From Thermus oshimai DSM 12092 (GTDB lineage: Bacteria; Deinococcota; Deinococci; Deinococcales; Thermaceae), in NCBI RefSeq assembly GCF_000373145.1, contig NZ_KB890602.1:82854-146853 (forward strand): a stretch of 64,000 nucleotides of DNA, in the 5' to 3' direction. Shown here in pieces: positions 5,155 through 19,060 of the stretch. Under the pieces are notes generated by a model. That model was not told the origin of the DNA. It searched no databases and saw only the letters and a list, made by a program, of their open reading frames with translations. How positions within the stretch are numbered: position 1 is the stretch's first letter; each line of letters opens with the position of its first letter. Made by a program: the position numbers and the translations under genes.

Positions 5155-6540
5155 ATGCCGGGTCTGCCCCTAAGCCAGCTTTTGCAGCTTCCCTCCCTCT
5201 CCCGGGCCCGCCTGCTGGCGGGGGATGGGGGGCGGGCCGTGACCTGGGTGCACGTGGTGGACCTGCCGGAGCCCGCGCCCTGGGTGCGCAAGGGGCAGCT
5301 TCTCCTCTCCACAGGGTACGCCTGGCCCCGGGAGGTGGCGGCCCTGAGGCGCTTCGCCGGGGAGCTGGCGGCGGCGGAGCCCGCGGGGGTGGTTCTGGCG
5401 GTGCCCCAGTTCTTTGACCGGTTTCCCGAAGCGGCCCTGGAGGTCCTGGCCGAGGCGGGGGTGGCGGTTCTGGAGCTCCCTTGGGAGGTGCCCTTTGCCC
5501 AGGTCACGGAGGAGGTGCTGAGGCGGCTTTTGGCCCGCCAGCTGGAGGTGCAGGAGCGGGTCCAGGCCCTGCACCGGGCCCTCATGGCCGCCCTTTTGGA
5601 GCGGGAAGACCTGGCCTCCTTTCTCGCCTACCTTTCCCGTCTCCTAGGCCAGGAGGTGCGCTGGGCCGAGGCGCCCGAGGGGGGGGTGGCGGTGCCTGTG
5701 CCCCTGGGCCGGGACCGGGTGGGGTATCTGGTCCTGGAGGGGCCCCTGGAGGAGGCCGAGGCCCGGGCCCTGGAGAACGCCGCCCTGATGGCCGGGCTCA
5801 TCCTGGCCCACCAGCGGGCCTTGGCCGAGCGGGAAGCCCGCCTGGGCTACGCCTTCTTGGATGCCCTTTTGGAGGGGAAGCGGGAGGCCCTTACCCCGGA
5901 GCGGGCCCGGGCCTTTGGCTTGGACCTTAAGCGGCGGTACCGGCTGGGGGTGGCCCTCCTGCCCCTCAGCCTGCCCCTTTCGGAGCGGGCTTTCCAGGAG
6001 CGGGAGCGGGCCTTGGGGGAGGTGCGGGGCCTGCTTAGGGGCATGGGCGTGGGGGCGGTGCTCTCTGTGAACCTCAACCAGGTGCGCTTCCTCCTGCCCG
6101 AGGGGCTGGACCCCGAGGCCTTCGCCCGCGCCTTGGACCGGCCCTGGCCCCTGTACTTTTCCCGGGCCTACGCCCCTTTGGATCTGGCCCGGGCCTTGGA
6201 GGAGGTGGAGCGGCTTTCGGCCTTCACCGCCCCAGGGGTGTACCGGTACGAGGCCCACCTGGTCCCCCGCTTCCTCCTCGGGGACCTCGAGGCCCGGCAG
6301 GAGCTTTTAGCCCTCCTGAAGCCCCTCCGCCCCCGGGAGCGGGAAGCGCTTCTCGCCTGGGTGCGGGCGGGGTTTGCCTACCAGGGGGCCGCCCAGGCCT
6401 TGGGGGTCCACCTGAACACCCTCCGCTACCGCTTGAGGCGGCTGGAGGAGCGGCTTGGGGTATCGCTGGACAGCCCCGAGGACCGGTTCCTTCTGGAGCT
6501 TGCCGCCCGGGTTTGGGAGCTAGAGGACAAAAAGACTTGA
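5155..6540 (+). CDS. PucR/CdaR-type transcriptional regulator
   Basis: A 461-residue regulator. The N-terminal half matches the PucR ligand-sensing domain (about residues 5-125: LSRARLLAGDGGRAVTWVHV, then the LLLSTGYAWP segment). The middle resembles the degenerate GGDEF-like domain of CdaR proteins (about 240-370). The C-terminus is the PucR helix-turn-helix (about 405-455), with YQGAAQALGVHLNTLRYR as the recognition part. Family members act as activators of catabolic operons for purines, GABA or polyamines. It lies 71 bases upstream of the nine-gene amine operon and points the same way, so it is the obvious candidate regulator; the inducer is not deducible. Confidence 0.8.
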   Translation: MPGLPLSQLLQLPSLSRARLLAGDGGRAVTWVHVVDLPEPAPWVRKGQLLLSTGYAWPREVAALRRFAGELAAAEPAGVVLAVPQFFDRFPEAALEVLAEAGVAVLELPWEVPFAQVTEEVLRRLLARQLEVQERVQALHRALMAALLEREDLASFLAYLSRLLGQEVRWAEAPEGGVAVPVPLGRDRVGYLVLEGPLEEAEARALENAALMAGLILAHQRALAEREARLGYAFLDALLEGKREALTPERARAFGLDLKRRYRLGVALLPLSLPLSERAFQERERALGEVRGLLRGMGVGAVLSVNLNQVRFLLPEGLDPEAFARALDRPWPLYFSRAYAPLDLARALEEVERLSAFTAPGVYRYEAHLVPRFLLGDLEARQELLALLKPLRPREREALLAWVRAGFAYQGAAQALGVHLNTLRYRLRRLEERLGVSLDSPEDRFLLELAARVWELEDKKT

Positions 6541-6611
6541 GGATTTTTGTGCGAGCCATACATTGAAGGGCCGGGTTCCCCGGCGTATCCTTGGGCCTCA
6601 AAGGAGGCAAG

Positions 6612-7901
6612 GTGGCCCTCATGGAGTCGCGGAACCAGGCGCTTTGGCAGGCAAGGGAGCGGTTCGTGCCCCGGGGGGTGGCCCAGGCCCACCCCGTCTT
6701 CGTGGCCCGGGCCCAGGGGGTTCGTCTTTGGGACGTGGACGGCCGGGAGTACCTGGACTTCGCTGGGGGCATCGGGGTCATGAACGTGGGCCACGGGCAC
6801 CCCCGGGTCCTGCAGGCGGTGAGGGCCCAGCTGGAGCGCTTCACCCACGTGTGCTTCCAGGTGACCCCTTACGAACCCTATGTCCGCCTGGCGGAGCGGC
6901 TGGCCCTCATGACCCCGGGAGATTTTCCCAAGAAGACCCTTTTTCTCACCACGGGGGCGGAGGCGGTGGAGAACGCGGTGAAGATCGCCCGGGCCTACAC
7001 GAACCGGCCGGCGGTGGTGGCCCTCACCCACAGCTTTCACGGCCGTACCCTCCTGGGGATGTCCCTCACGGGCAAGGCCTCCTACTACAAGCAGAACTTC
7101 GGCCCCTTCGCCCCCGAGGTCTACCACGCCCCCGCCCCTTACCCCTACCGGGGGGTTTCCGAGGCCCAGGCCCTGGAGGGCCTGGAGGAGCTTTTCCGCA
7201 CCCAGGTGGACCCGGAGCGGGTGGCGGCCGTGATCCTCGAGCCCGTTCTGGGCGAAGGGGGGTTTATTCCCCTTTCCCCGGAGTATCTGCGGGCGGTGCG
7301 CCGGCTCACCGCGGCCCATGGCATCCTCCTGGTGGCCGACGAGATCCAGTCCGGGTTTGGCCGCACGGGAAGGATGTGGGCCATAGAGCACAGCGGGGTG
7401 GTCCCCGACCTCCTCACCTTTGCCAAAAGCGTGGCCGCGGGGCTCCCCTTGTCGGGGGTGGTGGGGCGGAGCGAGGTCATGGATGCCCCCCAGCCCGGGG
7501 GCCTGGGGGGCACCTACGCGGGCAACCCCTTGGCCTGCGCCGCGGGGCTTGCGGTGCTGGAGGTCTTCGCGGAGGAGCGCCTGCTGGAGAAGGCCGAGGC
7601 CCTGGGCCGGCGCCTTTGGGAAGGGTTAGAGCGGCTGAAGGCCCGTTTCCCTCAGGTGGGGGAGGTGCGGGGGCTTGGGCCCATGGTGGCCCTGGAACTG
7701 GTGCGGGACCCCGTGGGCAAAGAGCCCGCCCCCGAGCTGGCCCAGCGGGTCCTGGAAGCGGCCCGGGCGCGGGGCCTCATCCTCCTGAAGGCGGGGATGT
7801 TCGGCAACGTCCTGAGGGTGCTGGTCCCCCTGGTGGCCTCCCTTGAGGAGGTGGAGGAGGGGCTTGGGCGCCTGGAGGGGGCCCTGGAGGTGAGCGTGTG
7901 A
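6612..7901 (+). CDS. Class III (GABA/polyamine-type) aminotransferase 1
   Basis: A PLP enzyme of about 429 residues, similar to 4-aminobutyrate and putrescine aminotransferases. It moves an omega-amino group to 2-oxoglutarate (or pyruvate), leaving an aldehyde. Visible: YLDFAGGIGVMNVGH, TTGAEAVENAVKIAR (phosphate binding), SFHGRTLLGMSLTGK, EPVLGEGGF, DEIQSGFGRTG (Asp to the pyridine nitrogen), and the PLP lysine in TFAKSVAAGLP (Lys272 from the GTG start). AAAGGAGG precedes the GTG at 6612; ATG at 6621 is an alternative. First gene of the operon; its stop overlaps the next start by 4 bases (GTGA). It is a paralogue of the gene at 11673, sharing long motifs. Confidence 0.9.
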   Translation: MALMESRNQALWQARERFVPRGVAQAHPVFVARAQGVRLWDVDGREYLDFAGGIGVMNVGHGHPRVLQAVRAQLERFTHVCFQVTPYEPYVRLAERLALMTPGDFPKKTLFLTTGAEAVENAVKIARAYTNRPAVVALTHSFHGRTLLGMSLTGKASYYKQNFGPFAPEVYHAPAPYPYRGVSEAQALEGLEELFRTQVDPERVAAVILEPVLGEGGFIPLSPEYLRAVRRLTAAHGILLVADEIQSGFGRTGRMWAIEHSGVVPDLLTFAKSVAAGLPLSGVVGRSEVMDAPQPGGLGGTYAGNPLACAAGLAVLEVFAEERLLEKAEALGRRLWEGLERLKARFPQVGEVRGLGPMVALELVRDPVGKEPAPELAQRVLEAARARGLILLKAGMFGNVLRVLVPLVASLEEVEEGLGRLEGALEVSV

Positions 7902-8962
7902 CCTGGGGAAGGCCCGCGCTCAAGGATGCTAGGATGGCGGCCAAGGTGGAGGAAGGGACGGGGCTGGTCCTTCAGGACCTGCGCAAGCGCTTCGGGGAGG
8001 TGGAGGTCCTGAAGGGGATCTCCCTGGCGGTGCGGCCCGGGGAGTTTTTCACCCTCCTTGGGCCCTCGGGGTGCGGCAAGACCACCTTGCTCCGCCTCGT
8101 GGGGGGGTTTGAGATCCCCGACGAGGGCAGGGTGCTCCTGAACGGGCGGGACCTCACCCCTCTGCCCGCCCACAAGCGGCCGGTGAACACCGTCTTCCAG
8201 AACTACGCCCTTTTCCCCCACCTCACGGTGTACGAGAACGTGGCCTTCGGCCTGCGCAGCCGCCGCTTCCCTGAAGCGGAGGTGCGGGCCCGGGTGGGGT
8301 ACGCCCTGGGGCTTTTGCGCTTGGAGACCCTTTTGCACCGTTACCCCCACCAGCTCTCGGGGGGGCAGAAGCAGCGGGTGGCCCTGGCCCGGGCCCTGGT
8401 GAACGAACCCCAGGTGCTCCTTTTGGACGAGCCTTTGAGCGCCCTGGACGCCAAGCTCCGGGCCGAGGTGCAGGTGGAGCTCCGCAACCTGCAACGGCGT
8501 CTGGGCACCACCTTCATCCTGGTCACCCACGATCAGGAGGAGGCCATGGCCGTTTCCGACCGCATCGGGGTTATGGAGGCCGGGGCCCTCCTCCAGGTGG
8601 GCACCCCGGAGGAGGTGTACGAGCGCCCCAAGACCCGCTTCGTGGCGGAGTTTTTGGGGGTGGCCAACCTCATCCCTGCCCGCCGGGTGGGGGAGGGGGT
8701 GGAGACCCCCTTTGGGGTTTTCCCCCTACGGGTTCCCTGGGCGGAGGGGCTCCTTGCCCTCCGGCCCGAGCGGGTGGAGGTCTTTAAGGAGGCGGTCCCG
8801 GGGAGCTTCCCTGCCCGGGTGCGGGAGGTGGTCTACCGGGGGGCTTACCTGGAGGCTTTCCTGGAGCCTGCCCTTCGGGTGCGCACCGCTTTGAGGCTGG
8901 CCCCCGGGGAAGGGGTTTTCGTGCGCCTGCCTGAAGAGGGGCTGGTGGTGCTGGATGCCTAG
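7898..8962 (+). CDS. potA: Polyamine ABC importer ATPase
   Basis: ATPase of a spermidine/putrescine-type importer. Walker [10 protein letters not shown] (about residues 55-63), Q-loop in NTVFQNYALFPHL, signature [15 protein letters not shown], Walker B VLLLDEPLSALD and switch His in LVTHDQEEA, followed by a TOBE-type C-terminal domain (about 245-354). The GTG start has GGAGG seven bases upstream and overlaps the previous stop; ATG at 7934 with AAGGA is an alternative that removes 12 residues. Adjacent to both permeases and the binding protein, so the importer is complete. Confidence 0.9.
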   Translation: MTWGRPALKDARMAAKVEEGTGLVLQDLRKRFGEVEVLKGISLAVRPGEFFTLLGPSGCGKTTLLRLVGGFEIPDEGRVLLNGRDLTPLPAHKRPVNTVFQNYALFPHLTVYENVAFGLRSRRFPEAEVRARVGYALGLLRLETLLHRYPHQLSGGQKQRVALARALVNEPQVLLLDEPLSALDAKLRAEVQVELRNLQRRLGTTFILVTHDQEEAMAVSDRIGVMEAGALLQVGTPEEVYERPKTRFVAEFLGVANLIPARRVGEGVETPFGVFPLRVPWAEGLLALRPERVEVFKEAVPGSFPARVREVVYRGAYLEAFLEPALRVRTALRLAPGEGVFVRLPEEGLVVLDA

Positions 8963-9860
8963 GGTTTTGGTCTGGTACGGGGAGCTCACCGCGGCCTCGA
9001 GCCTGGCCCGCCGGGGGCTTTTCCTCCTCCTCCCCGGGCTTCTTTGGCTTCTCGCCTTTCTCCTCCTGCCAAGCCTCCTCCTCATCCCCCTCTCCTTCGC
9101 CCAGCGGGGGGCCTTCGGCGAGGTGGTCTGGGACTTCAGCCTGGAGAACTACCGCCGGCTTTTGGGCTTCGGGATCCTGGGCTTCAGCCTGGATAACCTC
9201 TTGGCCCTGGGGCGCACCCTTTGGGTGGCCTTCTGGACCACCTTGATCTGCGTGCTCCTGGCCTACCCCATCGCCTTCTTCATCCGGGCCCAGGAGGGGC
9301 GCCGCCGTTACCTTTTCCTGGCCCTGGTCCTCGTCCCCTTCTGGACCAACCTGGTGATCCGCACCTACGCCTGGCAGCTCCTCCTGGCCCCCGAGATGCC
9401 CCTGGCCCGCTTCCTGGTGGGTCTTGGCCTTTGGGAGCCCGGCATGGCCCTTTTCCCCAGCGCCTTCGCGGTGTACGTGGGGATGGTGAGCGCCTTTTTG
9501 CCCTTCATGGTCCTTCCCCTCTACTCCAGCGTGGAGCGCCTGGACCCGAGCCTGGTGGAGGCGGCGCAGGACCTTTACGGCGGGCCCTGGCGCACCTTTG
9601 TGCACGGGGTTTTGCCCCAGACCCTGCCTGGGCTCACCGTGGGGGTGATCCTCACCTTTATTCCCGCCATGGGCATGTTCGTGGTCCCCGACCTCCTGGG
9701 CGGGGCCAAGCACCTTCTGGTGGGGAACCTCGTCCAGCAGGCCTTCTACACCATGCGGGACTGGCCCTACGGGGCCGCCTTGAGCCTGGTCCTCATCCTC
9801 CTTACCCTGGTGGCCTTGCGCCTTTACCGCCGCTATGGAAAGGAGGTGGACCTGGCGTGA
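8955..9860 (+). CDS. potB: Polyamine ABC importer permease PotB
   Basis: A 301-residue inner-membrane permease with about six membrane segments and the EAA loop that docks on the ATPase (EAAQDLYGGPWRTF, about residues 199-212). The long periplasmic loop between the first two segments (about 38-70) is typical of PotB. The start overlaps potA by 8 bases and its stop overlaps potC by GTGA. Substrate class inferred from the whole PotABCD set. Confidence 0.88.
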   Translation: MPRVLVWYGELTAASSLARRGLFLLLPGLLWLLAFLLLPSLLLIPLSFAQRGAFGEVVWDFSLENYRRLLGFGILGFSLDNLLALGRTLWVAFWTTLICVLLAYPIAFFIRAQEGRRRYLFLALVLVPFWTNLVIRTYAWQLLLAPEMPLARFLVGLGLWEPGMALFPSAFAVYVGMVSAFLPFMVLPLYSSVERLDPSLVEAAQDLYGGPWRTFVHGVLPQTLPGLTVGVILTFIPAMGMFVVPDLLGGAKHLLVGNLVQQAFYTMRDWPYGAALSLVLILLTLVALRLYRRYGKEVDLA

Positions 9861-10648
9861 GGCTCTCCCTTTGGGTGCGGGCGGTGGCCTTGGCTTCTTT
9901 GGCCTTCCTTTACCTTCCCATGCTGGCGGTGGCCCTGTTCTCCTTCAACCGGACCCGCCACGGCCTCTCCTGGGGGGGGTTCACCCTGGACTGGTACCTG
10001 CGCCTCTTTTCCAACGAGGCCATCCTCGAGGCCGCCCGCAACACCTTCCTCCTGGCCCTCCTCTCCACCCTCCTCTCCACCCTTTTGGGCACCCTCTTCG
10101 CCCTGGGCCTGGAGCGCCACCCCTGGGGCCGGGGGTTCCGGGCCTTTTTGGAAAACGTCCTCTACCTCCCCGTGGTGACCCCCGACCTCATCCTGGCCGC
10201 GGCCTTGGTGGTGGCCTTCGGCTTCCTGAGAGCGGTTTCCAGTCTCTTTGAGCCGGGCCTCCTCACCATGGTGATCGGACACGTCACCTTCCAGGTGGCC
10301 TTTGTGGCCCTGGTGGTGGCCAGCCGCCTGCGGAGCCTTCCCCGGGACCTGGACGAGGCCGCCCGGGACCTCTACGCCACCTACCCCGTTTACCTAAGGC
10401 GGGTCCTCCTCCCCCTCCTGGCCCCCGGCATCGTGGCCGGGGCCATGCTGGCCTTTACCCTTTCCCTGGACGATTTCGTCATCAGCTTCTTCACCGCGGG
10501 GCCCGCCAGCCAGACCCTGCCCCTCATCATCTACGCCTCCACCCGGAGGGGCCTTACCCCAGAGATCCACGCGGTGTCCACCTTGATCTTCCTCGTGACC
10601 GTGGTCTTGGTCCTGAGCGCGGAGCGCTTGACAAGGAGGGCGGCATGA
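9857..10648 (+). CDS. potC: Polyamine ABC importer permease PotC
   Basis: A 263-residue permease with six membrane segments. The GTG start at 9857 (MRLSLWVRAVALASLAFLY) lies in the GTGA that ends potB; the open frame continues far upstream but only as shadow sequence. The EAA loop is EAARDLYATYPVYLRR, and LAFTLSLDDFVISFF is a strongly conserved PotC segment near residue 200. Its stop overlaps potD by ATGA. Confidence 0.9.
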   Translation: MRLSLWVRAVALASLAFLYLPMLAVALFSFNRTRHGLSWGGFTLDWYLRLFSNEAILEAARNTFLLALLSTLLSTLLGTLFALGLERHPWGRGFRAFLENVLYLPVVTPDLILAAALVVAFGFLRAVSSLFEPGLLTMVIGHVTFQVAFVALVVASRLRSLPRDLDEAARDLYATYPVYLRRVLLPLLAPGIVAGAMLAFTLSLDDFVISFFTAGPASQTLPLIIYASTRRGLTPEIHAVSTLIFLVTVVLVLSAERLTRRAA

Positions 10649-11667
10649 AAAGGATTCTGGCGGTGCTGGCGGTTTTATTGGCCCTGGGCCTGGCCCAGAA
10701 GGAGCTTCGGCTTTTCATCTGGTCGGAGTACATAGACCCCGCCATCCTCGAGGCCTTCAGCAAGCAGACCGGCCTCAAGGTGCGCGTGGACCTCTACGAG
10801 TCCAACGAGGAGCTCATCGCCAAGCTCCAGGCGGGCGGGGTGGGGCAGTACGACGTCATCTTTCCTTCGGACTTCTACGTGCCCTCCCTGATCCACCTGA
10901 AGCTGGTCCAGCCCCTGGACCAGGGCAAGATCCCCAACCTGAGAAACCTGGACGACAAGTTCAAGAACCCGCCCTTTGACCCCGGCAACCGCTACTCCGC
11001 CGCCTACCAGTGGGGCACCACCGGCCTCATCTACCGCAAGGACCGGACGGCGGAGCCTAAGACCTGGGGGGTGCTCTTCAAGGAGCCCAAGGCCCCCTTC
11101 ATCCTCATGGACTCCCCCCGGGAGATGCTGGGGATTGCCCTTAGGTACCTGGGCTATTCGGTGAACACCAAGAACCCCAAGGAGGTCCAGCGGGCGGGCC
11201 AGGTGCTCCTCGAGGCCAAGAAGAGCCGCTACTTCCTGGGGTTTGAAGGGGGGGTGGGGGGCAAGAACCGGGTGGTGGCTGGGGCCGCCGCCTACGCCGT
11301 GGTCTACAACGGGGACGCGGTGCGGGCCGCCGACGAGAACCCCGGCAAGGTGGCCTTCGCCATCCCACAAGAAGGGGCCACCTTGTGGGTGGATTCCATG
11401 ATGATCCCCGCCAAGGCCCCGAACCCTGAAGGGGCCCACCGCTTCATCAACTTCATCCTGGACCCCAAGGTGGGGGCCCAGCTTTCCAACTTCAACCGCT
11501 ACGCCACCCCCAACAAGGCGGCCCTGCCCTACATCAACCCCCAGGACCGCAAGAACCCCGCCATTTATCCTCCCGCCGAGATGATGAAGCGCATGGAGTT
11601 CATCCTGGACCTGGGCAAGGACAACCGCATCTACGACGAGGTCTGGACCGCGGTCAAGAGCCGGTAG
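10645..11667 (+). CDS. potD: Spermidine/putrescine-binding protein
   Basis: The 340-residue periplasmic binding protein of the importer. The signal peptide (residues 1-18, ending LGLAQ) has no lipobox cysteine, so this is a secreted soluble protein and not a lipoprotein, unlike many Gram-positive PotD. The mature start ELRLFIWSEYIDPAI is the classical PotD opening. Later segments include YDVIFPSDFYVPSLI, AYQWGTTGLIY and the WVDSMMIPAKAPNPEGAHRFINFIL hinge region near residue 250. Overlaps potC by 4 bases; the second aminotransferase follows after 5 bases. Confidence 0.92.
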   Translation: MKRILAVLAVLLALGLAQKELRLFIWSEYIDPAILEAFSKQTGLKVRVDLYESNEELIAKLQAGGVGQYDVIFPSDFYVPSLIHLKLVQPLDQGKIPNLRNLDDKFKNPPFDPGNRYSAAYQWGTTGLIYRKDRTAEPKTWGVLFKEPKAPFILMDSPREMLGIALRYLGYSVNTKNPKEVQRAGQVLLEAKKSRYFLGFEGGVGGKNRVVAGAAAYAVVYNGDAVRAADENPGKVAFAIPQEGATLWVDSMMIPAKAPNPEGAHRFINFILDPKVGAQLSNFNRYATPNKAALPYINPQDRKNPAIYPPAEMMKRMEFILDLGKDNRIYDEVWTAVKSR

Positions 11668-11672
11668 GAACC

Positions 11673-13016
11673 ATGGGATACATCCAGCTGAAAACCCCCA
11701 TTCCCGGCCCTAAGAGCCGGGCGCTCCAGGAGAGGCGGGCCCAGGCGGTCACCCGGGCCCTGGCCCAGGCCAACCCCATCGCCGTGGCCCGGGCCCACGG
11801 GGCCCTGGTGGAGGACGTGGACGGGAACGTCCTCATTGACCTGGCCGGGGGGATCGGGGCCTTGGCCGTGGGCCACACCCCGGAGGGCGTGGTGGAGGCC
11901 TTAAAGGCCCAGGCGGAGCGCCTCATCCACATGTGCGCCATTGTGGCCAACTACGAGCCCTACGTGGCCCTGGCCGAGGCTTTAAACCGCCTCTTTCCCG
12001 GCCCCGGCCCCGCCAAGACCCTCCTGGCCAACGGGGGGGCGGAGGCGGTGGAGAACGCGGTGAAGATCGCCCGGGCCTATACGGGTAGGCCTGCGGTGAT
12101 GGTGTTTGAAGGGGCCTACCACGGGCGCACCAACCTCACCATGGCCATGACCTCCAAGTACGCCCTTTTCAAAAAGGGCTTCGGCCCCTTCGCCCCTGAG
12201 GTCTACCGCCTGCCCGTGCCCAACCTCTACCGCACCCCCAAGGGGATGACGGAGGAGGCGTACCTGGACTGGTCCTTGTGGAACCTGGAAAACGCCCTCA
12301 TCGCCCACGTGGACGGCAGCGCCCTGGCGGCCATTGTCATTGAGCCCGTCCTGGGGGAGGGGGGGTTCATCCCCGTGCCCCACCCCTTTTTGCGTAAGCT
12401 CCGGGAGATCGCCGACCGCACCGGGGCCCTTTTGGTGGTGGACGAGGTCCAGTCGGGCTCGGGGCGCACGGGCAAGATGTGGGCCATTGAGCACGCGGGG
12501 GTGGCCCCGGACCTTCTGGTCTCCGCCAAGAGCCTGGGGGCGGGGATGCCCATCAGCGCCGTTACCGGGCGGGCGGAGGTCATGGACGCCCCCCACGTGG
12601 GCGGGGTAGGGAGCACCTACGGGGGGAACCCCCTGGCGGCGGCGGCGGCCTTGGAGGCCCTGAGGATCCTTGAGACCCCCGGCTTCCTGGAGCGGGCCCA
12701 GGCCATTGAGGCCAAGGTGCGGGAGGTTTTTGAGCCCCTAAAGGCCGAGGTCCCGGCCCTGGGGGATGTGCGGGGCGTGGGGGCCATGATGGCCCTGGAG
12801 TTTGTGAAGGACCCAAAGGGCAAGGAGCCTTGGCCCGAGTTCGTCCTGGAGCTGGTGCGCCGCAACGCGGAAAAGGGGGTCATCACCATCCGGGCCGGCC
12901 TCTACTCCAACGCCCTCCGCTTCCTGCCCCCTTTGGACATCCCCCTGGACATGCTGGAAGAGGCCTTAGAGGTGGTTCGGGAGAACATCCGGGAGGTGTA
13001 TGCCGCCCTTGCCTGA
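11673..13016 (+). CDS. Class III (GABA-type) aminotransferase 2
   Basis: A 447-residue PLP aminotransferase, paralogous to the operon's first gene. Motifs: LIDLAGGIGALAVGH, ANGGAEAVENAVKIAR, AYHGRTNLTMAMTSK, IEPVLGEGGFIPVP, DEVQSGSGRTG and the PLP lysine in VSAKSLGAGMP (Lys286). Of the two it looks closer to GABA aminotransferases (GabT), which give succinic semialdehyde; I infer that the pair act at successive steps, one on the diamine and one on the amino acid, but which does which cannot be told from sequence. Ends 17 bases inside the GNAT gene. Confidence 0.88.
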   Translation: MGYIQLKTPIPGPKSRALQERRAQAVTRALAQANPIAVARAHGALVEDVDGNVLIDLAGGIGALAVGHTPEGVVEALKAQAERLIHMCAIVANYEPYVALAEALNRLFPGPGPAKTLLANGGAEAVENAVKIARAYTGRPAVMVFEGAYHGRTNLTMAMTSKYALFKKGFGPFAPEVYRLPVPNLYRTPKGMTEEAYLDWSLWNLENALIAHVDGSALAAIVIEPVLGEGGFIPVPHPFLRKLREIADRTGALLVVDEVQSGSGRTGKMWAIEHAGVAPDLLVSAKSLGAGMPISAVTGRAEVMDAPHVGGVGSTYGGNPLAAAAALEALRILETPGFLERAQAIEAKVREVFEPLKAEVPALGDVRGVGAMMALEFVKDPKGKEPWPEFVLELVRRNAEKGVITIRAGLYSNALRFLPPLDIPLDMLEEALEVVRENIREVYAALA

Positions 13017-13668
13017 GCCCCTTTTGCTTTCCGAGGATGGGCGCTTCGCCGTGGTGCGCTCGGAACCCTGGATGGCGGAGGCTTTGGAGGAGATCCAGGA
13101 GAAGAGCTTTCCCACCCTTTCCCGGGAGGAGCGCATGACCCGGGAGCACTACCTCTCCCACCTGCGCATCTTCCCCGAGGGGCAGCACGCGGTGGTGGAG
13201 GTGGCCACGGGAAAGGTGGTGGCCTGCTCCACGGATTTCCGCACCCGGGTGGACTTCCACCATTACCAGCACCGCTACATCGAGGCGGTGGCGGGCAACT
13301 GGCTCACCAACCACGACCCGGAAGGGGACTGGCTTTACGGGGCGGACATCGGCGTCCTCCCCGAGTACCGGGGTCTGGGGCTTTCCCGGCTTTTGTACCA
13401 GGCCCGGCAGGACCTGGTGCGCCGCCTTGGGCTTAAGGGCCATGTGGCGGGGAGCATGCCCAAGGGCTACCACCTCCACGCCCGGGAGATGCCCATAGAG
13501 GAGTACGTGCACCGGGTGGTGCGGGGGGAGCTCACCGATCCTGTCCTCTCCGTGCAGCTCAGGCGGGGGTACCGGGTTTACGGCATCATCCCCGACTACC
13601 TGGAGGACCCCTCCTGCCTCAACTACGGGGTCTTCGTGGTCTGGCGGAACCCGGAGGTGGGCTGGTGA
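13000..13668 (+). CDS. GNAT-family N-acetyltransferase
   Basis: A 222-residue acetyltransferase; the acetyl-CoA loop is in DIGVLPEYRGLGLSRLLY (about residues 115-132), with the typical V/IxxxxRxxGxxxxL pattern. The N-terminal part is unusually long and carries paired His/Tyr (FHHYQHRYIE). In the operon context an amine or polyamine N-acetyltransferase is plausible, paired with the amidohydrolase that follows, but this is inference. Overlaps the preceding gene by 17 bases and the next by GTGA. Confidence 0.8.
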   Translation: MPPLPEPLLLSEDGRFAVVRSEPWMAEALEEIQEKSFPTLSREERMTREHYLSHLRIFPEGQHAVVEVATGKVVACSTDFRTRVDFHHYQHRYIEAVAGNWLTNHDPEGDWLYGADIGVLPEYRGLGLSRLLYQARQDLVRRLGLKGHVAGSMPKGYHLHAREMPIEEYVHRVVRGELTDPVLSVQLRRGYRVYGIIPDYLEDPSCLNYGVFVVWRNPEVGW

Positions 13669-15131
13669 GGCGGGTGGCGGGCCGGGTCTATGTCCCCGAC
13701 GCCCAGGGCCGGTACCGCCCCTACCGGGCCCTTTGGGTGAAGGAGGGGCGGGTGGCGGGCCTCGAGCCCGGGCAGGGGGAGGGGGAGGTGGTCCTGCCTG
13801 GCTTCCACGATGCCCACGTGCACATCTGGAAGATCGGCCAGCTCCTCACGGACCTCCTGGACCTCCGGGGGGTGGGGTCCCTCGAGGCGCTGAAGCGGCT
13901 CCTGCAAGAGCGGGACCGCCTCCTCCCCCCGGGGGCTTGGGTGCTCGGGCGGGGGTGGAACGAGGCCCTGCTGGGGGCCTGGCCCACCCGGGCCTTCCTG
14001 GACGGGATTCTTCCCCGCCGCCCGGTGCTCCTCACCCGCACCTGCGCCCACATCCACGTGGCCAACACCCAAGCCCTCCGCGCCGCGGGCATCGGTCCCG
14101 ACACCCCAAGCCCCCCGGGGGGCGAGGTGCGCTATGAGGAGGGGCTCCTTCTGGAACGGGCCTATGGCCTTCTGGAACGGGCCATGCCCCGGCGCACGGT
14201 GGAGGATTACCAGCGCTATGTCCTGGCGGGGGCCCATCACCTCCTCAGCCGGGGGATCACCTCCGCCCTGGAAGCGGGGGCCGACCCCCTTCTCCTGGAG
14301 GCCTACCGCCGCCTGGACCGGGAGGGCCGCCTGCCCCTACGGGTGAGCGTCCTGGCCGTGGTGCGGCCCGATGGGGAGGAGACCACCTACCCTCTGCCCG
14401 AGCCCTACCGTTCCGAGCGCCTGGTGGTGGCCGGGGTGAAGTTCTTCGCGGACGGGGGCCTTTCCGGCGCTTCCGCGGCGGTGAGCCGGCCCTACCGGGA
14501 GGTGGGGGGAAAGGGGGTGCTAAGGCTTTCCGCGGGGGAGCTCTTCGAGCTGGCCCTGCCCGCCCACGAGAGGGGCTTCTTCGTGGCCACCCACGCCATC
14601 GGGGACGTGGCCATCCTGGAGGTCCTGGAGGCCTACCGCCGGCTTTACCAGGCCCGGCCCCTTCCCGTCCGCCACCGCCTGGAGCACTTCGGCCTGCCGG
14701 GGCCCAAGGCTTTAAGCCTGGCCCGGGCCTTGGGAGTCTGGGCCGTCCCCCAACCTATCTTTTTGGAGGAGCTGAGGGAGAACTTCCTCCGCTACCTTCC
14801 CCAGGAATTCCTCCCCCGGTGCTACCCCCTGGCCCGCATGGCCCGGGCGGGGCTTTCCCTGGCCTTCTCCTCCGATGCCCCGGTGGTGCGGGAGGTAAGC
14901 CCTCTGAAGGGGGCCCTGGCCGCGGGGCGGCCCTTGATGGGGAGGGGCATCCCCTTGGCCCGGGCCCTTTTCTACTACACTCAGCCTGAGGCCAGCGGTC
15001 TGCCCCCCGCCTGGCTTTGGCCAGGGCATAAGGCGGACCTGGCGGTGTGGGACCGGGACCCCTTCCGGCATCCGGAGGAGGCCCGGGTGGTGCGCGTGGA
15101 GGTGGACGGTGCGGCGGTCTTTACGGCTTGA
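13665..15131 (+). CDS. YtcJ-type metal-dependent amidohydrolase
   Basis: A 488-residue TIM-barrel amidohydrolase of the amidohydrolase-3 (YtcJ) group. The HxH metal motif is in LPGFHDAHVHIWK (about residues 44-56); GRGWNEALLGAWPTR, KFFADGGLSGASAA, FVATHAIGDVAI and SSDAPVV are characteristic. It hydrolyses an amide or cyclic amide with a divalent metal. In this operon it could remove an acetyl or other acyl group from an amine intermediate, which would pair with the GNAT protein; the sequence does not settle this. GTG start in the GTGA overlap; ends 23 bases inside the aldehyde oxidoreductase gene. Confidence 0.82.
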   Translation: MRRVAGRVYVPDAQGRYRPYRALWVKEGRVAGLEPGQGEGEVVLPGFHDAHVHIWKIGQLLTDLLDLRGVGSLEALKRLLQERDRLLPPGAWVLGRGWNEALLGAWPTRAFLDGILPRRPVLLTRTCAHIHVANTQALRAAGIGPDTPSPPGGEVRYEEGLLLERAYGLLERAMPRRTVEDYQRYVLAGAHHLLSRGITSALEAGADPLLLEAYRRLDREGRLPLRVSVLAVVRPDGEETTYPLPEPYRSERLVVAGVKFFADGGLSGASAAVSRPYREVGGKGVLRLSAGELFELALPAHERGFFVATHAIGDVAILEVLEAYRRLYQARPLPVRHRLEHFGLPGPKALSLARALGVWAVPQPIFLEELRENFLRYLPQEFLPRCYPLARMARAGLSLAFSSDAPVVREVSPLKGALAAGRPLMGRGIPLARALFYYTQPEASGLPPAWLWPGHKADLAVWDRDPFRHPEEARVVRVEVDGAAVFTA

Positions 15132-16818
15132 CCTGAAGGAGAGGAAGGCCTTTTGGCAGGAGGTCCCCTTGGAGGAGGCCGCCTTCGGGGGGCGGTACCG
15201 GACGGCTAAGCTCCTCATGGAACGGGAGGCCTACCGCTTTGACCCCCTTTCCCCGGAGAACCCCCTGGTGTTCGCCGTGGGGCCCCTGGCGGGCACCAGC
15301 TTTTCCAACGCCAACCGCACCAGCGTGGGCACCCGGAGCCCCCTCACCCTAGGGATCAAGGAGGCCAACGGCGGGGGCACCTTCGGCTACGCCCTGGGGC
15401 AGCTGGGCCTTTCCTACCTGGTCCTGGAAGGCCAGGCCCCGGAGTGGACCGTCCTCCGCCTCACCCGGGAGGGGGAGGTCTTCTTTGAGCCCGCGGAAGG
15501 GCTTTTGGGACTGGGGAACTACGAGGCGGCGAGGAGGCTCTTTTCCGCCTACGGCCAGAAGATCGCCTTCGCCCTTTTGGGCCCCGTGGGGGAGTACGGG
15601 GGGCTCCTATCCGGCATCGCCTTCAGCGACGTGGACGGGCGCCCTTCCCGCCTGGCCGCCCGGGGCGGGGTGGGGGCGGTGATGGCCTCCAAGCGGGTGA
15701 AGGCCATCGTGGTGGAGGTGGCGGGCCGCCCCCTGGTGCAGGACAAGCCCAAGGCCACGGAGGCCCTGAGGCGCTACGCCGCCCTCCTCCGCCAGGACCC
15801 CCTGGTCATGCAGTTTTACAACGCCATCGGCACCATGGGGATGGCGGACTTCCAGAACGCCTTCGGGGGGCTGCCCGTGCGCAACTTCCGCGAAGGCCGC
15901 CTGGCCCCGCCGGAGGCCTTCCGCATGGGGGGCCAGTACATCGCCCCCCTCAACAAGGCCCGGGGGGGCAAGCACACCCACGCCTGCATGCCCGGGTGCG
16001 TGATCCAGTGCTCCAACGTCATCGTGGACGAAAGGGGAGAGGAGATCGTCTCCCCCCTGGAGTACGAGACCATCGGGCTCCTTGGCACCAACTGCGGCCT
16101 CAACGACCCCGACCAGGTGGCCCACCTGAACCGCCTGGCCAACGACCTGGGGATTGACACCATCGAGGCGGGGGCCACCCTGGCCCTCCTCCTGGAGAAG
16201 GGGGAGGCCCCTTGGGGGGACTACGCCTTCTTGCGGAAAAAGCTGGAAGCCCTCTACACCCCTACGGAGGAGGCCCGTTTCCTGGCCCAGGGGACGGCCC
16301 GGGTGGGGGAGGCCTTGGGGCTTAAGCGGGTGCCGGTGATCAAGCGGCAGGCCATCTCCGCCTACGACCCCCGGGTGGTGGAGGCCACAGGGGTGACCAT
16401 GATGGTCACCGCCCAAGGGGCGGACCACACCGCGGGGAACGCCCCCCGCCTCGAGACCCGGGCCATGCCGGTGGAGGAGATCCTTTTGGCGAGCCACCAG
16501 GCCCAGGTGAACGCCGCGGCCAACGACAGCCTGGGGCTTTGCGTGTTCGGGGGCAGCGTGACCAACAAGAACCAGGACCTGGTGCGGGAGGCCATCTTTG
16601 GGGTCTTGGGGGTGGAGCTTCCCGGGGAGTACTGGACCCGGCTCGGGGAGGAGGTGCTCCGGCTGGAGCACCGCTTCAACCACTTGGCGGGCTTCACCCA
16701 CGAGGACGACCGCCTGCCCGCCTTCTTCTACGAGGAGCCCCTTCCCCCCAAGGGCTACACCGCCCGCTTCCGTCCGGAGGACCTGGCGCCCCTTTACGCC
16801 AAGCTCCACGGGGACTAG
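15109..16818 (+). CDS. Tungsten-type aldehyde:ferredoxin oxidoreductase
   Basis: A 569-residue member of the AOR family, which oxidises aldehydes to acids with a tungsten bis-pterin cofactor and one [4Fe-4S] cluster, electrons going to ferredoxin. Motifs: FAVGPLAGTSFSNANR (pterin), ARGGVGAVMASKRVKAI (domain 1), the cluster cysteines CMPGCVIQC (Cys293, 297, 301) and the fourth in DSLGLCVFG (Cys478). The spacing C-x3-C-x3-C differs from C-x2-C-x3-C of the archaeal prototype. Last gene of the amine operon; it could take the amino-aldehydes made by the transaminases. No partner subunit or ferredoxin gene is beside it. Its stop meets the mutS2 stop tail to tail at CTAG. Confidence 0.88.
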   Translation: MRRSLRLDLKERKAFWQEVPLEEAAFGGRYRTAKLLMEREAYRFDPLSPENPLVFAVGPLAGTSFSNANRTSVGTRSPLTLGIKEANGGGTFGYALGQLGLSYLVLEGQAPEWTVLRLTREGEVFFEPAEGLLGLGNYEAARRLFSAYGQKIAFALLGPVGEYGGLLSGIAFSDVDGRPSRLAARGGVGAVMASKRVKAIVVEVAGRPLVQDKPKATEALRRYAALLRQDPLVMQFYNAIGTMGMADFQNAFGGLPVRNFREGRLAPPEAFRMGGQYIAPLNKARGGKHTHACMPGCVIQCSNVIVDERGEEIVSPLEYETIGLLGTNCGLNDPDQVAHLNRLANDLGIDTIEAGATLALLLEKGEAPWGDYAFLRKKLEALYTPTEEARFLAQGTARVGEALGLKRVPVIKRQAISAYDPRVVEATGVTMMVTAQGADHTAGNAPRLETRAMPVEEILLASHQAQVNAAANDSLGLCVFGGSVTNKNQDLVREAIFGVLGVELPGEYWTRLGEEVLRLEHRFNHLAGFTHEDDRLPAFFYEEPLPPKGYTARFRPEDLAPLYAKLHGD

Positions 16819-19046
16819 GCCTTCAGGACCACCACCGTGACCCCGTGCCCCCCTTCGTTAGGGGGGGCATCGGCGAAGCTCTCCACCCGCTTGTCCCGCC
16901 TTAGGGCCTCGCGGATGGCGTTCCTAAGGGCCCCCGTCCCCTTGCCGTGGAGGAGGCGGAGGGTGGAAAGGCCCAGGGCCCTGGCCTCCTCCAGGGCGTG
17001 GTCCACCTCCAAAAGGGCCTCCTCCACCGTGAGCCCCCTGAGGTCCACCTCCTTGACCTCCCGCTTGGGCCTAAGGGTGACGGCCTTGGGCGGGGCCTCC
17101 TCTTTGAGGGGTTTCAGCTCCGCTGTCTTGAGCCGGAGCTTGAGGGGGCCCACCTGCACCAGGGCCTCCTCCCCCAAAAGCTCCACCACCCGCCCCTTCT
17201 GCCCCAGGGAGGGGACCTCCACCGGGCTTCCCGGGGCCAGGCCGGGCGGGGGAGGGGGGGCTTCCCGCTTGGGGAGGTAGCGGGCCCTTAGGGCCATGAC
17301 CTCCTTCAGGGCGTCCCGTTTGCCTTCGGTGCGCGCCCGCTCCCGAAGGGCCTTGAGCTCGGCCTCGAGGCGCTTAAGCCGCTCGGAGGCCTCCCTTTCC
17401 AGGGCCTTTAGCCTCTCCGCCCGCTCCTCCTCCCAAAGGGCCTCCTTCCTGGCGAGCTCCGCCCTTAGGCGCTCCGCCTCGGCCTTTAGGGCCTCCAGGG
17501 CCTTCCGCTCCCCTTCCAGGGCAAGCCGTTCCCTCTCCAAGAGCTCCAGGAGGCCCTCCAGCCGCCCCGCCTCGGGGAGGAGGGCCTCGGCCCGGGCCAG
17601 GACCCCCTCGGGGAGGCCCAGCCTCCTTGCGATGGCGAAGGCGTAGCTCCGCCCCGGCACCCCCAGGAGCAGGCGGTAGGTGGGGCGGAGGGTCTTCAGG
17701 TCAAACTGCATGGAGGCGTTCAGGATCCCCTCCCGCCCTTGGGCGAAGGCCTTGAGGGGGGAGAGGTGGGTGGTGACGGCCCCCTTCACCCCAAGCTCCA
17801 GGAGGCGCTCCAGGATGGCCTGGGCGAGGGCGGCCCCCTCCTCGGGGTCGGTGCCGCTTCCGAGCTCGTCTATGAGGACGAGGCTTTTCTCCGTGGCCCC
17901 CTCCAGGGCCTCCTTGATGCGCACCAGGTGCCCCGCGAAGGTGGAGAGGCTTTCCTGCAGGGACTGCTCGTCCCCGATGTCGGCGAAGATGCGGTCCGGC
18001 CACTCCAGGGTGGCTTCCCGGGCGGCCACGAAGAGGCCGGCCTGGGCCATGAGCACCGCAAGGCCCAGGGTTTTGAGGAGGGCGGTCTTCCCCCCCATGT
18101 TGGGCCCGGAGATGAGGAGGAGGCGCCTGGCGCCATCCAGGCGGAGGTCGTTGGGGACGGGGTTTTGGATGAGGGGGTGGAAGGCCTCCTTGAGCGCGTA
18201 CCCCTCGCCGAAGCGGGGGGGCCTAAGCCCCAGGTCCCGGGCCAGGGCGGCCTGGGCCTGGAGGAGGTCCAAAAGGCCCAGGGCCTCGAGGGTTTCCGAA
18301 AGCCCCTCGTCCTCCGCCAGGAGGGCGGTGAGCTCGGAGAGGATGCGGGCCACCTCCTCTTCCTCCTGCAACCTTAGGCTTTGCAGGCGGTTGTTGAGCC
18401 GCACCACGGAGAAGGGCTCCACGAAGAGGGTGGCCCCGGACTCGGACTCGTCCAGGAGGATGCCGGGCACCTTGTGGGCCATTCCGGCCCGCACGGGGAT
18501 GCAGTAGCGCTCCCGCCTCAGGGTGATGAACCTTTCCCCGATGGCCTCCTTGTGGGCATCCATGAGGGCATAGAGCCGGTCCAGGATCTGCTGGCGAAGG
18601 GGCCCAAGCTCCCGGCGGATGGCCTTGAGGCGGGGGCTCGCCTCGTCCTTCACCCGGCCCTCCTCGTCGATGGCCCCCCGCACCCGCTTGGTGAAGCGGC
18701 CGTGGTCCCCGATGCCCTGGGCCACCGCCCCCAGGCCCTCCAGCCCCTTCAGCTCCTCCCTCAGGGCCTCGGCCTCCTCCAGGGCCTCGGCCGCCAGGAG
18801 GAGTTCTTGGCCGGAAAGCCTTCCCCCCCCGAGGGCCTTCTCGTAGGCCGCCCTCAGGCCCCCCGCGTCGGGGAGGCGGTAGGGGTAGGTCAGGGCCTCC
18901 TGCGTGAGGCGGTGGCGGCGCTCGGCCTCCTCCCGGGAAAGGGGGAGGAGGGCCAAGGCCCTTTCTTGGCCCAAAGGGGTCTGGGCCCTTTCCGCCAGGA
19001 GGGCTAGGACCTTGGGGAACTCCAGGACCTCGAGGACGTCCCGCAC
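16815..19046 (-). CDS. mutS2: MutS2 recombination/collision-rescue ATPase
   Basis: A protein of about 743 residues. Order: core and clamp helices (about 1-300), the MutS ATPase with GPNMGGKTALLKT (about 314-326), Walker B LVLIDELGSGTDPEEG and THLSPLKAFA, a long coiled coil (about 500-620), a KOW-like segment and the C-terminal Smr nuclease domain (VDLRGLTVEEA, LLHGKGTGALR). It lacks the mismatch-recognition domain of MutS. The family suppresses homologous recombination and splits collided ribosomes. GTG at 19046 is preferred to TTG at 19055 because a TATACT box (19055-19060) covers the TTG. Confidence 0.93.
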   Translation of the reverse strand: MRDVLEVLEFPKVLALLAERAQTPLGQERALALLPLSREEAERRHRLTQEALTYPYRLPDAGGLRAAYEKALGGGRLSGQELLLAAEALEEAEALREELKGLEGLGAVAQGIGDHGRFTKRVRGAIDEEGRVKDEASPRLKAIRRELGPLRQQILDRLYALMDAHKEAIGERFITLRRERYCIPVRAGMAHKVPGILLDESESGATLFVEPFSVVRLNNRLQSLRLQEEEEVARILSELTALLAEDEGLSETLEALGLLDLLQAQAALARDLGLRPPRFGEGYALKEAFHPLIQNPVPNDLRLDGARRLLLISGPNMGGKTALLKTLGLAVLMAQAGLFVAAREATLEWPDRIFADIGDEQSLQESLSTFAGHLVRIKEALEGATEKSLVLIDELGSGTDPEEGAALAQAILERLLELGVKGAVTTHLSPLKAFAQGREGILNASMQFDLKTLRPTYRLLLGVPGRSYAFAIARRLGLPEGVLARAEALLPEAGRLEGLLELLERERLALEGERKALEALKAEAERLRAELARKEALWEEERAERLKALEREASERLKRLEAELKALRERARTEGKRDALKEVMALRARYLPKREAPPPPPGLAPGSPVEVPSLGQKGRVVELLGEEALVQVGPLKLRLKTAELKPLKEEAPPKAVTLRPKREVKEVDLRGLTVEEALLEVDHALEEARALGLSTLRLLHGKGTGALRNAIREALRRDKRVESFADAPPNEGGHGVTVVVLKA

Positions 19047-19054
19047 AAAGGGCA

Positions 19055-19060
19055 AGTATA
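19055..19060 (-). promoter_or_regulatory. -10 box for leaderless mutS2
   Basis: TATACT on the minus strand, 9 bases before GTG 19046. It overlaps the alternative TTG start, so it decides the start if it is active. Confidence 0.5.

Follow-up and report, generated by a model that had tools for sequence, protein, structure and literature searches.

Which aldehyde does a putative tungsten enzyme oxidise when it is encoded at the end of an amine operon of an aerobic thermophile? This question is raised by a locus of Thermus oshimai DSM 12092, carried by a stretch of 64,000 nucleotides of contig NZ_KB890602.1 (hereafter the window). Nine genes at 6612-16818, behind a PucR-type regulator, encode two class III aminotransferases (GabT1 and GabT2), a PotABCD-type importer, a GNAT-type N-acetyltransferase, an amidohydrolase (YtcJ, a name given by a first-pass annotation of this DNA) and an aldehyde oxidoreductase (AOR). 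This run is probably an amine-catabolic operon flowing through gamma-aminobutyrate (GABA), and sequence comparisons suggest that the AOR may well be its enzyme for succinic semialdehyde (SSA), standing in for the NAD(P)-type succinic semialdehyde dehydrogenase (SSADH). Indeed, the AOR likely performs the last step in place of SSADH, because it occupies the slot behind YtcJ that is held by SSADH in several relatives. In the following, G000 denotes the genome of the window, the other G numbers compared genomes and the L numbers compared loci. Families in the window were named from open reading frame (ORF) calls and from Pfam and NCBIfam profile scans; in the relatives, genes were called with a simple caller that missed or fused some of them, and presence and order rest on tblastn.

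Genes encoded behind YtcJ

The GNAT gene (746 homologues among 1566 candidates) is present in 54 of the 111 genomes searched in the phylum. The loci of 28 of these 54 genomes were compared, 21 of them outside Thermus and its sister-genus genome G071. In all seven cluster-bearing genomes (six Thermus and G071), YtcJ is directly followed by AOR. No AOR was found in the 21 other loci, 13 of which encode YtcJ, and in five of these 13 (L077, L078, L087, L088 and L091) an SSADH lies behind YtcJ on the same strand, with two small called ORFs in between in L088. These loci span three families, namely that of Thermus itself (L077, L078), a second (L087, L088) and a third (L091). All five proteins were scanned and have SSADH as top NCBIfam model (556-576 bits), and that of L078 shares 47.9% identity with GabD of Escherichia coli. 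The proposal of the first-pass annotation that the AOR replaces an NAD-linked aldehyde dehydrogenase therefore stands as far as an NAD(P)-type enzyme fills the slot in relatives, but this enzyme is SSADH and not an aminobutyraldehyde dehydrogenase.

The genome G000 contains ten aldehyde dehydrogenase matches, none of which has SSADH or aminobutyraldehyde dehydrogenase as top model. Their top models are HpaE (three matches, one well over the cut-off and two under), betaine-aldehyde dehydrogenase (two, under the cut-off), and pyrroline-5-carboxylate, methylmalonate-semialdehyde, PaaZ, ProA and ketoglutarate-semialdehyde dehydrogenase (the last under its cut-off). The best of the ten shares 41% identity with the SSADH of L078, whereas close homologues elsewhere in the family reach 58-64%. 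At a threshold of at least 58%, no SSADH match was obtained in the cluster bearers G000, G001, G013 and G019. Among the 20 GNAT-bearing Thermaceae outside Thermus, two have an SSADH (at least 58%) within 3 kb of GNAT. Seven (G053, G061, G064-G068) have it on the same contig at a distance of 13-60 kb, two at a greater distance, and nine on a different contig.

Two GABA-type aminotransferases

Both aminotransferases resemble GABA transaminase (GABA-T). Indeed, (i) GabT1 and GabT2 share 50.8% and 42.7% identity, respectively, with E. coli GabT, (ii) both keep Arg141, Glu211, Lys268 and Arg398 of that enzyme, (iii) each keeps 11 of 13 compared positions, nine being common to both (I50, R141, E206, E211, D239, Q242, K268, T297 and R398), while GabT1 differs at 138 and 393 and GabT2 at 79 and 296, and (iv) the equivalog model TIGR00700 places GabT1 above and GabT2 below its cut-off, the two leading models of GabT2, PRK06058 and TIGR00700, both being GABA-T models (Table 1). 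The choice of these 13 residues follows the roles that we take them to have. E. coli PatA keeps 7 of the 13 positions and has F50 and K141, versus I50 and R141 in both Thermus enzymes; these share 33-36% identity with PatA, and PatA-like substrate-site residues were not found in them. Since their residues are of the GABA-T type and unlike those of PatA, GabT1 and GabT2 should yield SSA or a similar compound, rather than 4-aminobutanal.

This bears on the pathway put forward in the first-pass annotation, in which a di- or polyamine is transaminated to an aminoaldehyde (4-aminobutanal or 3-aminopropanal), the AOR oxidises this aldehyde and a second transamination follows. Such a scheme draws on the PotABCD-type importer with its three conserved amine-contact residues, on the GNAT and the amidohydrolase, which would suit an acetylated amine, on the position of speA before GabT2 in L083, and on the PRK07046-type transaminase (substrate unassigned) encoded in the clusters of some relatives. 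It nevertheless appears improbable, as neither transaminase is of the PatA type and as SSADH fills the AOR slot elsewhere. Above all, the cluster of G071 (L072) encodes its own aminobutyraldehyde dehydrogenase besides the AOR (771 bits, cut-off 615), which is the main reason why SSA, and not 4-aminobutanal, is assigned to the AOR.

The aldehyde oxidoreductase

The AOR (569 amino acids) matches the structure of the Pyrococcus furiosus enzyme (PfAOR, 1aor; 5e-58, 200 bits) and carries the AFOR_N (PF02730) and AFOR_C (PF01314) domains, both above their cut-offs. Its residues T242, E320, Y419 and H440 correspond to the second-shell residues T243, E313, Y427 and H448 of PfAOR, and each is present in 109-110 of 110 homologues (120 listed matches minus 10 near-identical ones). 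The iron-sulfur region deviates from PfAOR and from the paralogue L001, in that the first cysteine of the CxxCxxxC motif is Thr290, whereas C293, C297 and C478 are kept; the comparison uses the positions that we take to be the Fe4S4 cysteine ligands of PfAOR. An extra cysteine, C301, is present; like C293, C297 and C478, it is conserved in 108-110 of the 110 homologues. The four second-shell residues are listed for aldehyde-oxidising members of the tungsten-containing oxidoreductase (WOR) family in passages of two papers (PMC12096430, PMC13328260), and a passage of a review mentions other departures from the usual ligands, as WOR4 has lost one cluster cysteine (Fe3S4, no activity seen) and ASOR uses an aspartate (PMC12096430).

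The flanking genes of the AOR encode the amidohydrolase and MutS2 (the latter named by reading), and no small-subunit gene adjoins it. The protein is thus predicted to be a WOR of the Class I type, with tungstopterin and one Fe-S cluster. Ferredoxin would be its electron acceptor, because the characterised Class I WORs all use ferredoxin according to part of a recent survey (PMC13328260). The single large subunit, the AFOR_N and AFOR_C domains and the four second-shell residues are shared with PfAOR and the Class I WORs, from which the AOR differs by Thr290 in place of the first cysteine, by the extra Cys301 and by its amine-operon setting. The formaldehyde oxidoreductase (FOR) of P. furiosus, an AOR relative, binds glutarate and was proposed to oxidise glutaric semialdehyde, as stated in a passage of the review (PMC12096430). 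This enzyme offers the closest precedent for a substrate of the carboxy-semialdehyde kind, although it belongs to a hyperthermophilic archaeon. To our knowledge, it has no link to a GABA operon.

An assignment of the window AOR to clade 83 of the WOR family, like BmWOR, was considered and rejected, since it scores 146 bits against WOR83 (9q1t) versus 200 bits against 1aor, a comparison based on scores and not on a clade tree. Two further AOR paralogues are encoded on contig C13 of G000: L001 matches WOR83 of Haloferax volcanii (677 bits to 9q1t) and L002 is nearest to PfAOR (387 bits). Clade 83 includes Thermus members according to part of a published analysis (PMC9424855); BmWOR and its clade resemble the window enzyme as WOR proteins of aerobes, but the clade 83-like Thermus enzyme is the paralogue L001.

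Distribution of the AOR and of the cluster in Thermus

An AOR orthologue was detected in 26 of 27 Thermus genomes (23 at full length, three partial or in pieces), G014 having none. GNAT is present in six, and GabT2 (at least 87%) and PotD (at least 84%) in the same six. In five of these six, the cluster is inserted between an ABC-ATPase gene (PF09818) and AOR in a conserved row that reads galactokinase, ZnuA-like protein, another class III transaminase, ABC-ATPase, cluster, AOR and acyl-CoA dehydrogenase (galactokinase, ZnuA and acyl-CoA dehydrogenase being named by reading). The row is otherwise the same without the cluster in L073, L074, L075 and L100, and also in L096 except for the ZnuA match. 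The G000 cluster has a different position, by murI and mutS2 (named by reading), with AOR still next to it, and the ABC-ATPase row stays on another contig, where an amine-oxidase-fold gene comes next and then ferrochelatase and hemE. In many Thermus loci (L004, L008-L010, L073-L075 and others), the genes before AOR are a further class III transaminase gene (PRK06062, scanned in L008) and the PF09818 gene.

Seventeen Thermus genomes have a full-length AOR but no cluster, and in two of them remnants of the cluster were found before an intact AOR. In G005 (L095:10650-11429), a single open frame directly before AOR fuses an initial part of PucR (residues 17-161, 55%) with a terminal part of YtcJ (333-488, 61%), with overlap between the BLAST spans of the two; an in-place deletion therefore removed the rest of the cluster. 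In G008 (L147:6981-7139), what is left before AOR is a 53-residue stretch close to the YtcJ end (434-486, 66%). Of the three cluster-less genomes with a partial AOR, two were scanned: the fragmentary G020 (L012:6017-6322) has the end of YtcJ (386-486, 77%) before an AOR split in two frames, and G010 shows no YtcJ remnant before that gene. A short YtcJ-like stretch before AOR in G003, G009, G022 and G026 was discarded as a remnant, as it overlaps the AOR start and its ribosome site. The cluster was thus lost more than once while AOR stayed and, because AOR is retained where the cluster was lost, it has a use without the cluster.

Several of these observations, and others, weigh against the assignment of the AOR to SSA. 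Of the 27 Thermus genomes, 26 have AOR and only six the cluster, so that 20 of the 26 AOR bearers lack it. An intact AOR persists beside remnants of the deleted cluster in G005 and G008, and a split one behind the end of YtcJ in the fragmentary G020. In the AOR tree, the cluster bearers do not form a group, bearers being paired with non-bearers in G018/G005, G006/G026 and G001/G002, and all YtcJ-AOR adjacencies may descend from one event instead of being seven independent ones. Outside Thermus, the five SSADHs behind YtcJ are all below the SSADH cut-off of 646, and a PRK07046-type transaminase lies behind YtcJ in 8 of the 13 loci, with one or two small genes in between in six loci. Among all PRK07046-type genes of the compared loci, those of L079, L072 and L106 were scanned, and the remainder share their BLAST group. 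The cluster bearers G006, G018 and G071 hold an SSADH of 59-60% identity elsewhere in the genome, and within Thermus the presence of SSADH does not mirror the absence of the cluster, as it occurs in 2 of the 6 bearers and in 5 of the 21 non-bearers. Finally, AOR relatives outside Thermus (51-60% identity) have GNAT, YtcJ, PotB, PotC or PotD in none of 16 loci (L013-L027 and L029), some of which are 3-8 kb long; these belong mostly to Chloroflexota and Rokubacteriota, with one Trueperaceae and one gammaproteobacterium (by title). Three of them show a class III transaminase match, weak and on the opposite strand, and five an ABC-ATPase match to PotA. That this AOR subgroup mostly lacks amine neighbours favours a broad aldehyde role, with recruitment to the operon within the Thermus lineage.

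An exclusive role of the AOR in the cluster is rejected on its genus-wide presence. The AOR could instead be a general aldehyde-clearing enzyme of Thermus that lies behind the cluster and oxidises leaking aldehydes, with no dedicated SSA step. This explanation, which we consider unlikely on balance but serious, accommodates the genus-wide distribution, the AOR genes kept beside cluster remnants and the 16 outside loci without amine neighbours, and it agrees with the broad aldehyde range that passages of two papers report for the single-subunit WORs PfAOR and BmWOR (PMC9424855, PMC13328260). It accounts less well for AOR lying directly behind YtcJ in all seven cluster bearers, for the cluster and AOR being found together in G000 away from their usual Thermus neighbours, and for SSADH occupying the place behind YtcJ elsewhere. 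We read the AOR as an enzyme that is also useful outside the cluster, and the GABA-type operon as having recruited this tungsten-type AOR as a stand-in for SSADH.

Importer, acetyltransferase and amidohydrolase

For PotA, PotB, PotC and PotD, Pot models score highest in NCBIfam, yet all under their cut-offs (Table 1). PotD matches the E. coli PotD chain 1pot (4e-61); of the 12 site positions compared, which we take to line the ligand pocket, seven are kept and five are changed (85, 168, 211, 229 and 327). It keeps Glu36, Glu171 and Asp257, which are named as spermidine contacts of E. coli PotD in a passage of PMC4096761. These residues bear out the polyamine-type importer of the first-pass annotation and point to a cationic amine as ligand, without fixing which one.

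Other arrangements of these functions are found in relatives. A small acetyltransferase is encoded behind YtcJ in the Thermaceae relative L076 (14465-14896; NCBIfam AAC(6') 155 bits, cut-off 140), and similar genes also come after YtcJ in some other relatives. In L092-L094, from another family in the phylum, a C45-type autoproteolytic hydrolase (scanned in L092) lies beside GNAT and replaces YtcJ. The cluster of the Thermaceae relative L077 encodes an amine-oxidase-fold flavoprotein (14456-16132, PF01593 182 bits) between GabT1 and PotA.

In an acetylated route of amine breakdown, GNAT acetylates a diamine, an oxidase encoded outside the cluster converts the product into 4-acetamidobutanal, the AOR oxidises this aldehyde, the amidohydrolase frees GABA, and GabT and a dehydrogenase finish. 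In agreement with such a route, GNAT adjoins a hydrolase in many loci, be it YtcJ or the C45-type enzyme, and a PF01593 flavoprotein is encoded not only in the L077 cluster but also beside GNAT in L093 and L094 and beside GabT2 in L093 (L077 and L093 were scanned). The window operon, on the other hand, encodes no amine oxidase. The strongest PF01593 match of G000 was rejected as the first step because, lying beside ferrochelatase and hemE, it is likely a heme-pathway enzyme; a second match reaches 111 bits. We hold this route to be very improbable for the window.

Proposed pathway and comparison with known systems

In the pathway through GABA that is proposed here, PucR would switch the operon on in response to an amine or an amine product, and PotABCD would import a cationic amine. 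The GNAT and the amidohydrolase, a possible acylation/deacylation pair, could then lead to GABA or a similar omega-amino acid, which GabT1 and GabT2 would transaminate to SSA. The AOR, with its predicted tungstopterin and one Fe-S cluster and with no partner subunit, would oxidise SSA and pass the electrons to ferredoxin, and the succinate formed would enter the tricarboxylic acid cycle. Regarding the cofactor, G000 encodes MoaC and a ModAB pair, which could supply a base for a molybdenum or tungsten cofactor. A search for a tungstate transporter in G000 gave a WtpB match below the cut-off only, the best match being ModB beside ModA; TupABC was not searched.

The scheme resembles the gabT-gabD system of E. 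coli, in which a GABA transaminase is followed by SSA oxidation, and the conserved GabT residues and the SSADH behind YtcJ in relatives fit this likeness. Unlike E. coli, Thermus has AOR in place of GabD and a PotABCD-type importer in place of GabP, adds GNAT and an amidohydrolase, and has two GabT paralogues. In the Puu and PatA/PatD pathways of E. coli, amines are taken up and flow via GABA to succinate, as proposed here for Thermus, but neither PuuA nor PuuB is found among the ten window genes, and the transaminases are not of the PatA type.

Tungsten-type AOR paralogues were already counted in T. thermophilus in a 2005 genome comparison, as seen in part of that paper (PMC1274311), and according to a passage of the 2026 survey a physiological role is defined for only 5 of the 92 clades of WORs (PMC13328260). 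No report of a tungsten enzyme for SSA, nor of a tungsten AOR linked to polyamines, was found in our searches of open-licence papers. A WOR beside GABA transaminases, in the slot held by SSADH in relatives, gives an uncharacterised subgroup one concrete candidate substrate and, if the assignment is true, places a ferredoxin-linked step in the GABA breakdown of an aerobic thermophile. More tentatively, and as a broader claim that we find somewhat doubtful, aerobic Thermus may possess a tungsten-dependent, ferredoxin-linked GABA branch in which a new WOR subgroup, marked by a shifted set of Fe-S cysteines (CxxxCxxxC...C), displaced the NAD(P)-linked SSADH of an amine-catabolic operon.

Organisation of the locus

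The first-pass annotation had described nine packed genes behind a PucR-type regulator at 5155-16818, and the ORF calls, Pfam and NCBIfam confirm this description (Table 1). Neighbouring genes of the run overlap by 4-23 bases, save for PotD and GabT2, which are 5 bases apart. This run is an operon-like unit and not a chance arrangement, because five other Thermus genomes show the same order, as does one sister-genus genome (G071), there with two extra genes.

Table 1. Regulator gene and nine-gene run of the window, with the profile matches used for naming
Product	Position	Strand	Profile matches
PucR-type transcriptional regulator	5155..6540	+	PF07905 96 bits, PF13556 64 bits
GabT1, GABA-type class III aminotransferase	6612..7901	+	TIGR00700 550.5 bits, cut-off 506.7
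PotA, ABC transporter ATPase	7898..8962	+	top NCBIfam PotA PRK09452 370 bits, cut-off 482
PotB, permease	8955..9860	+	top NCBIfam PotB 221 bits, cut-off 348
PotC, permease	9857..10648	+	top NCBIfam PotC 216 bits, cut-off 326 (scan from 9851)
PotD, solute-binding protein	10645..11667	+	top NCBIfam PotD 215 bits, cut-off 582
GabT2, GABA-type class III aminotransferase	11673..13016	+	PRK06058 505 bits (cut-off 639), TIGR00700 486.5 bits (cut-off 506.7)
GNAT-type N-acetyltransferase	13000..13668	+	PF00583 25.1 bits (weak match)
YtcJ-type amidohydrolase	13665..15131	+	PF07969 (Amidohydro_3) 221 bits
AOR (WOR family, single large subunit)	15109..16818	+	PF02730 177 bits, PF01314 197 bits

For PucR, the top NCBIfam model is PmfR, at 50 bits and far under its cut-off of 800. 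The start of GabT1 is a GTG preceded, 4 bases upstream, by the Shine-Dalgarno sequence AAAGGAGG, the longest ORF beginning at 6591, and that of PotC is a GTG overlapping the PotB stop. The gene speA, which the first-pass annotation had pointed out as a neighbour, is indeed present nearby (19130-21022) but does not belong to the operon, because it lies on the opposite strand behind MutS2; in the relative L083, speA precedes GabT2 on the same strand. MutS2 itself (16815-19055) shares 74-78% identity with its counterparts in 25 other Thermus genomes; the tree of these proteins, which served as a species proxy, shows a long branch for G000.

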